This document shows, one piece after another, positions 7,834 through 9,999 of a stretch of 56,231 bases of DNA. Each line of letters starts with the position of its first letter. The first letter of the stretch is position 1. The position numbers and the translations under genes were made by a program. The notes under the pieces are model-generated. The model was not told the DNA's origin. It made no database searches and was given only the letters and a program-made list of their open reading frames with translations. The stretch comes from Verrucomicrobiota bacterium. GTDB lineage: Bacteria; Verrucomicrobiota; Verrucomicrobiia; Opitutales; Opitutaceae. The stretch is from the NCBI GenBank assembly GCA_016871755.1, contig VHCJ01000019.1, positions 1 to 56,231 on the forward strand. The letters are read 5' to 3'.

Positions 7834-9336
7834 TCAGGGCAGCACGTAGAGTTCAATGAGGCCCTCACCCGTCGCGCCGGACACTCCGGACAGGTGCACG
7901 GTGTAGGACGATCCGGCTTCCATCTGAACCTCCAGCGCGGCGTCGCGACTGCCGGCGGCAAGCGGAAATGCCCCGGCTTGGGTGAAGCGCTCCGCCAGCG
8001 AAGCGGGCCAGTTGTCGTTCGCGGCAAGGAGGGATGAACCACGGAACACGGCGATCTGCGGATCGCTCAGAGCGCCCGCCACGCCAAAGCCCGCAAGACC
8101 CGGCCCGATGCCGCGGATGAGCAAGCGGAGCGAACCGGATCCTTCGACCACGAACCCGGCGATGAGGATGTCATCCCCCACCCCGACGCGATGCCGGGCC
8201 GAGAGGTTGCGCCACGGGCGTGCCGGGTCTCCCGCCGAGGCATACGCCTCCAGAAGCACGGTCCCCTTGGCGGTACCACCTACGATCTGGGCGGTGATGC
8301 CGCCGCGCACCGTCTCCAACAACGCCGCATCCCGGCTCCCCGCGGGCCAGCCAAACGCCCCAAGACGGGCGAACTCCGCCGCCAGCGCGGGTTCCCAGGT
8401 GTCGTTCAGCTCCGACGGTTGCGTTTCCCCCGCCGGCACGAGCGCGATCGAAGGATCCGGCACCCCCACCAAGCCGAACGCCGCCAGCGCCGGCCCCGCA
8501 GCACGGAAGAGAAACCGCTTGCCACCGCCCGCCACCGTCGTTCCCGCAATGAGCGTCTGCCCCGGCGCGAGACCCGCCCGCACCGAAAGATTGCTCAGCC
8601 TCGCGGAGGCCATCTCCACCGGCGTCAACAACACCTCCAGACGCGTATAGTAAAGGGTGGTGAGACCCTCGAACCCGGAGTCCGTCCCAAAGGTCAACCA
8701 CAGCGCGCCCGCCTCGTCCGTGGTCACCCATTCACCGTCCACCGTCGAGGAGCGCGTGACCCGCTGGTAACCGCTCGTTCCGGCGGGCGTCGCGACCGTG
8801 CCCAGCCCCACGAGATCAACACCGCTGCGGCTCTGGTTGGATTTGTCCAGACTGAGCCGCCACCAGCCGTCGCGGTCCTCGACCCTCTGCGGCTCCGCCA
8901 CGGTGGCCCCCACTTTCACAAAGACGCCGTCGGCCGGTGAACCGCCGATGCCGACCGACCCGGAGGGCGCATCCGAGGCGAACTCAACGACGAAGCGGGC
9001 ACGGTAGGCCGTCCGGGGGGCAAGCCCGGTGACCCGGCGACTCCAGTACATGAAGAGATCGTCGCTGCGATTTTGCCCCGAGATCATCAGCGCCGGAGCG
9101 CCCCCGAGGCTCGCAGGACGCGGGGCGTGCCCGCTGCGCAGATCGTAGAGGGCGGGATCCGCGTTCTTGGGCAAGTCGACAAAGCCCGAGACGAAGCCAT
9201 GCGCCGACTCCGCGAAGTCGTAAACGAGGCGCACCTCGCTCGGGGAATCACCCCCGGCCGCCCACGCCGTCGCTCCCGGCACCAGCAACGCACCGACGAG
9301 CCTCACCCGGTCGCTCGTTCGCGCAATCACCCGCAT
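7834..9336 (-). CDS. Secreted protein with two Opitutaceae-type beta-sandwich repeats
   Basis: About 500 residues from the preferred start at MRVIARTSD (9336), which places a signal peptide (LVGALLVPGATAWAAG) at the N-terminus; the frame is open to 9381. Residues about 30-235 form a concanavalin/CBM-like domain describing a sugar- or surface-binding sandwich (FVSGFVDLP, SVGIGGSPADGVFVKVG). Then come two diverged copies of a ~125-residue unit at about 244-368 and 370-500. Each opens RLSNLSVR / WRNLSARH, followed by LIAGTTV / LIAGFVV, LFRAAGPAL / LIRGIGPGL, DPSIAL / DPQIAV, a W-containing ND.W segment, and AGSRDAALL / AGSRDAALE. This repeat is common in large secreted proteins of Opitutaceae. 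Function unknown; likely cell-surface binding. Confidence 0.75.
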   Translation of the reverse strand: MRVIARTSDRVRLVGALLVPGATAWAAGGDSPSEVRLVYDFAESAHGFVSGFVDLPKNADPALYDLRSGHAPRPASLGGAPALMISGQNRSDDLFMYWSRRVTGLAPRTAYRARFVVEFASDAPSGSVGIGGSPADGVFVKVGATVAEPQRVEDRDGWWRLSLDKSNQSRSGVDLVGLGTVATPAGTSGYQRVTRSSTVDGEWVTTDEAGALWLTFGTDSGFEGLTTLYYTRLEVLLTPVEMASARLSNLSVRAGLAPGQTLIAGTTVAGGGKRFLFRAAGPALAAFGLVGVPDPSIALVPAGETQPSELNDTWEPALAAEFARLGAFGWPAGSRDAALLETVRGGITAQIVGGTAKGTVLLEAYASAGDPARPWRNLSARHRVGVGDDILIAGFVVEGSGSLRLLIRGIGPGLAGFGVAGALSDPQIAVFRGSSLLAANDNWPASLAERFTQAGAFPLAAGSRDAALEVQMEAGSSYTVHLSGVSGATGEGLIELYVLP

Positions 9337-9474
9337 CCAACGCTCCGCTTCACGTGTCACCATGGTCGAGACCCAGCGCACGGCGGGTCGATTCGTTGGT
9401 CAACCTTTCCGACTCGATTGTTCCCCCCGCAATCCGGCCGACCGCCCCCCGCGAGACGCGATGGCACTCCAGCA

Positions 9475-9480
9475 TTGACA
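9475..9480 (+). promoter_or_regulatory. TTGACA -35 box ahead of the leader peptide
   Basis: A perfect consensus -35 hexamer lies 33 bases upstream of the leader-peptide ATG. The -10 at the right distance (about 9497-9503, CCTCTT) is poor, so the promoter is only half convincing. No Shine-Dalgarno sequence precedes the ATG. Confidence 0.3.
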
Positions 9481-9513
9481 AGCCACGGCGTCTTCTCCCT
9501 CTTTCCGACCTTC

Positions 9514-9636
9514 ATGTCCCTCCGCGGCACGACACTTTCGGCAGGCGCCTCCGCCCACGGTCTCTCCGTGGTGGCCTCCGTCATTGTCTCCATTTCCGTC
9601 GCCGTCGTCGTTACGCGCGCACCGCAGGGGGCCTGA
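9514..9636 (+). CDS. Candidate branched-chain amino acid (ilv-type) leader peptide
   Basis: A 40-residue open frame, ATG at 9514, TGA at 9634. Its second half is a run of valine and isoleucine codons: VVASVIVSISVAVVVT at about residues 19-34, followed by the residues RAPQGA. Ten Val/Ile codons in sixteen is the signature of an ilvB/ilvG-type leader peptide, in which ribosome stalling for lack of charged tRNA-Val or tRNA-Ile controls a downstream terminator. A perfect attenuator hairpin follows 19 bases after the stop. The expected ilv or leu gene is not downstream. The peptide itself would have no other role. The assignment rests on codon content plus the RNA structure, not on homology. Confidence 0.6.
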   Translation: MSLRGTTLSAGASAHGLSVVASVIVSISVAVVVTRAPQGA

Positions 9637-9661
9637 CGTCACTCTCAATGACTCGCCCCCT
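9573..9661 (+). promoter_or_regulatory. Alternative pairing of the attenuator leader RNA
   Basis: Three segments can pair in mutually exclusive ways. Segment 1, GGCCTCC at 9573-9579 (inside the Val/Ile codon run), can pair with GGGGGCC at 9627-9633 with one G-U. Segment 2, AGGGGGC at 9626-9632, is the exact complement of GCCCCCT at 9655-9661, which is the left arm of the terminator. A ribosome stalled on the valine codons would cover segment 1, free segment 2 and thereby break the terminator. This is the classical attenuation layout; the pairing is seen, the mechanism is inferred. Confidence 0.55.
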
Positions 9662-9686
9662 CCGGTGCCGCCGGAGGGGGTTTTTT
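9656..9686 (+). terminator. Rho-independent attenuator/terminator
   Basis: A perfect 10-bp GC stem (CCCCCTCCGG at 9656-9665, CCGGAGGGGG at 9671-9680), five-base loop TGCCG, and six T directly after (9681-9686). The T-run exists only on the plus side, so it ends a rightward transcript that starts upstream of 9656. That fits the leader peptide and nothing else here. Confidence 0.85.
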
Positions 9687-9750
9687 GTTTCCCCGTCCGG
9701 CGTCCGCAGCGCAGGGGGTGGTCCCACCCAACCGACCACACCACCCAGCC

Positions 9751-9999
9751 ATGATCACAGACTCAGGACTCACCCTGGAGCGCCAATTCCCGGAGCGGAG
9801 CGACTCCCTGCCGAACTCCACGCCGACGAGACCGCAGGGCCCGCGGCAAACCGGCAAACCCGCCTCCGCCGCAGGGTGGAGTGAAGGCCCCGCCCCCGAG
9901 GTCATGACGCATGACTTCCTGCTGGCCAATCTCCACCCGGAACTGAGCCGCGACGCACTCGCGGCCGAGGAGCGCCGGCTCCGCGCCATCGACCTCTGA
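9751..9999 (+). CDS. Small ORF downstream of the attenuator, unknown
   Basis: An 82-residue open frame from MITDSGLTLERQ. The middle is Pro/Ser/Gly-rich and low in structure; the last 30 residues (MTHDFLLANLHPELSRDALAAEERRLRAIDL, starting about residue 52) could be two helices. No Shine-Dalgarno is visible before the ATG. It is the only plus-strand frame that the attenuator at 9656-9686 could control, but it resembles no biosynthetic enzyme. It could be a remnant of a deleted gene, a small regulator, or not coding at all. Confidence 0.3.
   Translation: MITDSGLTLERQFPERSDSLPNSTPTRPQGPRQTGKPASAAGWSEGPAPEVMTHDFLLANLHPELSRDALAAEERRLRAIDL

Follow-up and report, generated by a model that had tools for sequence, protein, structure and literature searches.

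What does an amino acid-sensing switch control when no biosynthetic gene follows it? The question is raised by an Opitutaceae genome (assembly GCA_016871755.1, here G000), in which a stretch of 56,231 nucleotides (the window; contig VHCJ01000019.1) contains a valine- and isoleucine-rich leader frame and a terminator that a preliminary description had likened to the layout of ilv attenuators, followed only by an 82-codon frame and a gene on the opposite strand. That description had left two explanations standing: either the regulated operon was deleted and left its switch behind, or an unknown small gene is under branched-chain control. Amino acid attenuators are familiar from the control of biosynthetic operons and aminoacyl-tRNA synthetases. 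The analysis presented here makes it probable that the element is a ribosome-mediated attenuator sensing charged valine tRNA, and perhaps also isoleucine tRNA, that at least 23 genera have put to a new use, the control of an undescribed small protein absent from the libraries searched.

Anatomy of the attenuator

The leader peptide ORF (MSLRGTTLSAGASAHGLSVVASVIVSISVAVVVTRAPQGA; 9514..9636, plus strand) is read from the sequence as 40 codons between an ATG at 9514 and a TGA at 9634-9636, and its regulatory Val/Ile codons (9568..9612) account for 10 of 15 codons, or ten of sixteen over 9568-9615 (V V A S V I V S I S V A V V V T), letter for letter as previously noted. The intrinsic terminator downstream of the leader stop (9656..9686), which is seen in the sequence, the terminator scan and the alignment, likewise bears out the earlier account, with a 10-bp stem (9656-9665 with 9671-9680), a loop of 5 and six T at 9681-9686. 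The final leader codons form segment 2 (9619..9632), the 5' arm of the antiterminator, which stops just short of the leader stop and pairs with segment 3 (9655..9668; alignment A3), common to antiterminator and terminator. This pairing, originally proposed for 9626-9632 with 9655-9661, is present and extends further, with 13 of 14 positions paired. The predicted folding energy of 9514-9690 (-77.9 kcal/mol) lies well below the mean of 200 shuffled sequences (-64, sd 3.7; z -3.7, none as low), and in the minimum-energy fold segment 2 is paired with segment 3 and the terminator is unformed.

Pairing between segments 2 and 3 is also the preferred register across relatives, with 80% of cells pairing over 30 aligned sequences against 59% for the next best register, and in the same alignment antiterminator and terminator contend for one segment. 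Covariation gives little support to either structure because most attenuator columns hardly vary. A protector pairing between segments 1 and 2 is a textbook part of such attenuators and had been proposed here as well. It can form in the window (9573-9579, GGCCTCC, with 9627-9633, GGGGGCC; seven pairs, one of them G-U), but in the leaders of 127 relatives it does no better than in codon-shuffled versions (mean z -0.25, 9% at p<=0.05), and it is not supported as an element of the switch. Segment 2 begins just 6 bases past the last Val codon, so that a ribosome stalled at the last Val codons would mask it, and the early codons should therefore matter most.

A -35-like TTGACA (9475..9480, plus strand) can be read in the sequence upstream of the window leader, with a weak -10. 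In relatives, a TTGAC precedes the leader ATG by 36-51 nt in 110 of 127 cases, compared with a chance expectation of about 8 of 127 in the 90-nt stretch searched (a rough estimate from composition), and is followed 17-18 bases on by a T-rich, -10-like stretch. Its position suggests that transcription starts within a few bases of the leader ATG. A generic sigma-70 scan of the window leader region yields no promoter-like site at threshold, and a generic terminator scan finds one site where 0.7 are expected in shuffled sequence; taken alone, these features are not unusual, and it is their conservation that sets the locus apart. The window has no match at the gathering threshold in Rfam 15, with only RF02837 and RF02399 appearing locally, far below their thresholds.

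Conservation and distribution of the switch

Two genomes of the same genus as the window genome (G005 and G003) both have the locus. Identity to the window in these relatives is 43% upstream of the leader, 89% in the leader (109 of 123 positions in each), 100% in the spacer, 97-100% in the terminator and 72% in the linker, and within the small ORF it amounts to 44-45% in the N-terminal half and 81% in the C-terminal half. Over the last 23 leader codons there are 2-3 synonymous differences in 21.7 sites, compared with a pS of 0.43-0.50 in the neighbouring isomerase gene, and synonymous sites that are so nearly frozen point to selection on the RNA, beyond the peptide alone.

At the level of the family (Opitutaceae, as defined by named records), a covariance model built from 30 sequences (R1) finds matches in 142 of 252 genomes, spread over 36 of 49 genera; the window genome has a single copy. 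A DNA search of 150 family genomes gives matches, some of them short, in 77. Scanned by pattern, named genomes yield 16 stretches, 13 of them titled Opitutaceae, Opitutae or Opitutus and the rest Cephaloticoccus, Verrucomicrobia and Verrucomicrobiota. Of 288 genomes from the phylum as a whole, 21 match at E<=1e-4, 15 inside the family and six outside. Among the five outside matches examined (G388 was left out), four look like chance, and only G382 (L217), from another family of the same order and the strongest match outside the family (E 1e-7), has a Val-rich leader and terminator before an ilvB gene resembling the attenuated type, which suggests that ilvB was the original target. Among the titles and opening lines of abstracts in the literature searched, no earlier description of this element was found.

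Genes downstream of the switch

Among the matches listed, 146 loci were classified, of which two (L026 and L075) are the same place, leaving 145 distinct. With the small-ORF class picked by motif and the ilvB class by RHEQG[AG]G, these matches comprise 103 small ORFs with an [HNTA]D[FLM]L core, 31 ilvB genes (30 distinct) and 12 others, namely four MFS transporters, one ilvN, one HEFL-variant ORF, one HGLL-variant ORF and five contig ends. Counted by distinct locus among the same matches, ilvB lies behind the switch in 30 of 145, and a complete ORF of 58-111 codons, the class to which the 82-codon frame of the window belongs, in 105. The comparison with relatives that the preliminary description had called for does place ilvB behind the same switch.

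The identity of the ilvB class was checked with NCBIfam at L138, the gene of which scores above the TIGR00118 cut-off and has its best score with PRK08155, below the curated cut-off (813 vs 870 bits), and five more places of the class are also above the TIGR00118 cut-off. Behind ilvB comes an ilvN-like frame in 19 of the 22 loci that are complete, and both of those tested match the ACT domain of the AHAS small subunit; that of L107 scores best with PRK08178, again below the curated cut-off (105.5 vs 128 bits). By name, PRK08155 and PRK08178 are the large and small subunits of acetolactate synthase, and we take them to denote the type I enzyme. A few loci depart from both classes: L161, L166, L172 and L181 have a model-matched attenuator before an MFS transporter (PF07690), with leaders that look shorter, and L175 (G013) has one directly before an ilvN-like gene without ilvB.

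Valine makes up 20% of all leader residues in relatives, and the leaders of the two classes arrange it in their own ways. Of the 30 in the ilvB class, 27 contain runs of 4-8 Val, and the class has means of 7.2 Val and 2.9 Leu in the last 22 codons, while those of the small-ORF class average 6.4 Val and 0.6 Leu over the same length and have their Val codons split by Ser and Ala, the longest run being of 2-3 in 88 of 103. Both leader classes occur together in three genomes (G050, G142 and G002). In the window genome, the one full ilvB (G000:C11:69085-70812) has an N-terminus that reads unlike the attenuated type and no attenuator in the 500 bases upstream, and model R1 finds no second copy of the switch in the genome.

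The small protein

In the window, the small-protein gene occupies 82 codons (9751..9999, plus strand), with a variable N-terminal half and a conserved C-terminal half. The conserved part (MTHDFLLANLHPELSRDALAAEERRLRAIDL; 9904..9999, plus strand) includes the HDFLLANLHPEL motif (9910-9945), and over residues 48-82 the proteins of G005 and G003 each share 77% identity with that of the window. Between the window and G005, 10.5 of 22.8 synonymous and 5.5 of 70.2 nonsynonymous sites have changed in this part, and its pN/pS is 0.17 against both relatives. Across genera, the commonest pattern is a Pro-rich N-terminal half followed by HD[FL]L[VL]xNxxP[DE]L, and the dN/dS of the small ORF ranges from 0.26 to 0.52 in 13 genera, as computed from non-independent pairs with identities of 50-97% and with genera g30 and g50 resting on one pair each.

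Taking the first ORF blindly avoids the bias of selecting by motif. In 110 loci (ilvB, the four MFS and the ilvN loci excluded), of which four are cut off, the first ORF of at least 50 codons contains [HN]D[FLM]L in 101 of the remaining 106 and in 23 of 24 genera, compared with none (0 of 442) of the similarly sized ORFs taken as controls from other parts of these loci, a set that includes non-gene frames. The five misses are L034, at a contig end, and four variants (THEFL, TDFL twice and HGLL). A conserved small-protein gene thus lies behind the switch in 23 genera, which bears out part of the second of the initial explanations; its control would probably be by valine itself.

The window protein has no match in Pfam, NCBIfam or PADLOC, and those of relatives none in Pfam (0 of 4) or PADLOC (0 of 13), with chance-level NCBIfam hits in 2 of 4 (best E 0.14). 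The predicted structure, of low confidence (mean pLDDT 61.5), is mostly without secondary structure, apart from one C-terminal helix. A resemblance to the IlvB N-terminus is seen at p<=0.01 in 12 of 103 members, with 32 of the 103 giving no score, and is not significant for the window's own protein (p 0.13). A by-eye search for the source of the HDFL core in the IlvB C-terminus or the start of ilvN gave no convincing link. At the level of the nucleotides, CACGAYTTYCTCGTG in the HDFLV codons of relatives (CACGA..TCGTG) could form a 5-bp hairpin, and GTG is the preferred Val codon; complete in only 50 of 101 loci, this hairpin was judged secondary to the protein motif and rejected as an element.

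The aminotransferase partner and its loss

A PLP aminotransferase comes next after the small ORF in 18 of the 109 loci, belonging to seven genera. The other 91 loci have no aminotransferase within 700 bases (11 of them have fewer than 700 bases left), and their neighbours, picked by codon-position GC independently of databases, vary between genera and are often convergent. The enzyme of L025 has solved relatives in 1x0m, 1wst and 2egy (E 6e-102, 1.9e-100 and 4.5e-91), and these best matches are multiple-substrate and alpha-aminoadipate (LysN) aminotransferases; the enzymes of L159 and L045 match PF00155. Of the 17 aminotransferase loci that have the motif, 16 close the small ORF with ATGA (8) or GTGA (8), so that its stop can overlap the next start.

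In the genus of the window, the enzyme is present in seven of ten genomes (E<=1e-30), six times directly behind the small ORF and once, in G004, in a locus split by contig ends. At the same threshold, neither the window genome nor G003 nor G005 yields a match, and in these three the small ORF ends in ATCGACCTC and a stop codon, while L024 reads ATCGACCTCCCATGA into the aminotransferase. The presence of the enzyme in seven genomes of the same genus indicates that an operon gene was lost in the lineage of the window. The first of the initial explanations therefore captured part of the history, since a gene behind the switch has disappeared, yet the switch and the small ORF are still conserved. 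Nor is the term orphan supported, if by that a functionless leftover is meant, for strong constraint on the switch continued once the gene was gone.

A model for attenuation and its alternatives

In the mechanism that we propose, RNA polymerase would start a few bases upstream of the leader ATG. With valine ample, the ribosome would reach the stop codon at 9634 and cover segment 2, leaving segments 3 and 4 to form the terminator and end the RNA near 9686. With valine short, it would stall in the early Val codons, and pairing of segment 2 (9619-9632) with segment 3 (9655-9668) would then permit read-through and synthesis of the 82-codon gene product. The ancestral target was probably ilvB, with the class that drives the small protein being derived; in seven genera the small protein would be driven together with the aminotransferase, and the lineage of the window would have dropped the enzyme and kept the switch and the small protein. 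The small protein itself may have arisen by replacing ilvB behind the switch, given the 12 of 103 members that resemble the IlvB N-terminus. As to its function, our guess is that it adjusts branched-chain amino acid metabolism, a guess prompted by the switch, by the operon partner in some genera and by the IlvB-like N-terminus of those same members, the window's not among them. The full scheme, in which the attenuator is dedicated to a mostly stand-alone, HDFL-core small protein that is produced when valine runs short and works on branched-chain enzymes or on some other target in starvation, is put forward tentatively, its chances being somewhat less than even.

Other accounts of the locus are less favoured. 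That a Val-rich frame in GC-rich DNA should by chance lie beside an ordinary terminator, of which a generic scan expects 0.7 in the region, is refuted by the homology results of the DNA search, model R1 and the blind first-ORF count, and retains only a negligible probability. A relic, in which deletion of the regulated operon left behind a switch and a short ORF that are now decaying junk, would account for the aminotransferase missing from the window genome, G003 and G005, and for the ATCGACCTC-stop ending where L024 continues through ATCGACCTCCCATGA into the enzyme. Decay is, however, hard to reconcile with a terminator and spacer 97-100% identical and a leader 89% identical in relatives with an isomerase pS of 0.43-0.50, with a pN/pS of 0.17 at the end of the small ORF, and with the 91 of 109 loci that show no aminotransferase and still have the ORF; this reading, largely refuted by conservation, was rejected as very improbable.

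Scarcely more probable is a role for the small ORF as a mere translational coupler, or second leader, for the aminotransferase: the ATGA or GTGA with which 16 of the 17 motif-bearing small ORFs before the enzyme end makes overlap possible, but in the 91 of 109 loci without the enzyme within 700 bases (11 of them shorter) the neighbours differ and the motif persists. The alternative to which we grant most, although still an unlikely one, is that the locus acts in trans, through the terminated leader RNA of about 170-180 nt or through the leader peptide, and that the small ORF is secondary, since conservation is higher in leader and terminator than in the small ORF, synonymous sites included, and a trans-acting leader peptide has been reported elsewhere (PMC7298713). 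The frozen parts are, nonetheless, the antiterminator and terminator, which attenuation in cis explains, and the small ORF is under constraint at the protein level and recognisable behind 101 of 106 non-ilvB copies.

Relation to known systems

Attenuation controlling a small protein finds partial parallels in several systems. In E. coli, ivbL is the attenuator of ilvBN, the operon for acetolactate synthase I, and the loci of the ilvB class resemble it in layout, with a Val-rich leader before ilvB and ilvN; unlike ivbL, the window copy and 105 of the 145 loci among the matches listed drive a small ORF. IlvX of E. coli is also a small protein, from the ilvL-ilvG region of the ilv operon, and it is likewise encoded after a branched-chain attenuator, but it is much shorter than the window protein and lies within an ilv operon. 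The enzyme behind the small ORF in L025 is akin to LysN and the multiple-substrate aminotransferases (1x0m, 1wst and 2egy); no such enzyme was found in the window genome.

In Corynebacterium, Mycobacterium and Streptomyces, candidate leader peptides and terminators are described before ilvB (PMC1262725), with the same succession of short ORF, runs of Ile, Val and Leu codons and terminator; they differ from the present element in that most copies read here precede a small protein. The trp leader peptide of Sinorhizobium meliloti, peTrpL, is reported to act in trans (PMC7298713), which makes it conceivable that the product of an attenuator locus has a role beyond its own operon, but in that system the leader peptide itself acts, whereas the conserved product here lies downstream of the terminator. 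More generally, an attenuator that looks like an orphan can lead to a small gene that has escaped notice, and the tie to a valine sensor hints at when the small protein is made, so that its role becomes testable.

Linker and upstream region

Between the terminator and the small ORF, a putative hairpin (GTGGTC with GACCAC; 9718..9739, plus strand) is weakly to moderately supported. Linker hairpins of differing sequence recur at a similar place in many genera, with a mean z of -1.18 in the 103 small-ORF loci and -0.46 in the 30 ilvB loci, the window's own having a z of -0.6, and they may serve to bring a distant Shine-Dalgarno sequence close to the start codon. At positions -14 to -4, a classical Shine-Dalgarno word is absent in all 133 loci inspected. 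A GGAG-like word occurs upstream of the linker hairpin in 99 of these 133.

The convergent neighbour downstream, a xylose isomerase-like TIM barrel protein (PF01261; 10042..11244, minus strand), lies outside the switch and also adjoins the locus in G003 and G005. On the upstream side, the window has a minus-strand frame of 515 codons (7834-9513) with no match in Pfam, and in G005 an FMN reductase gene (PF03358; L002:422-994) stands upstream of the leader.
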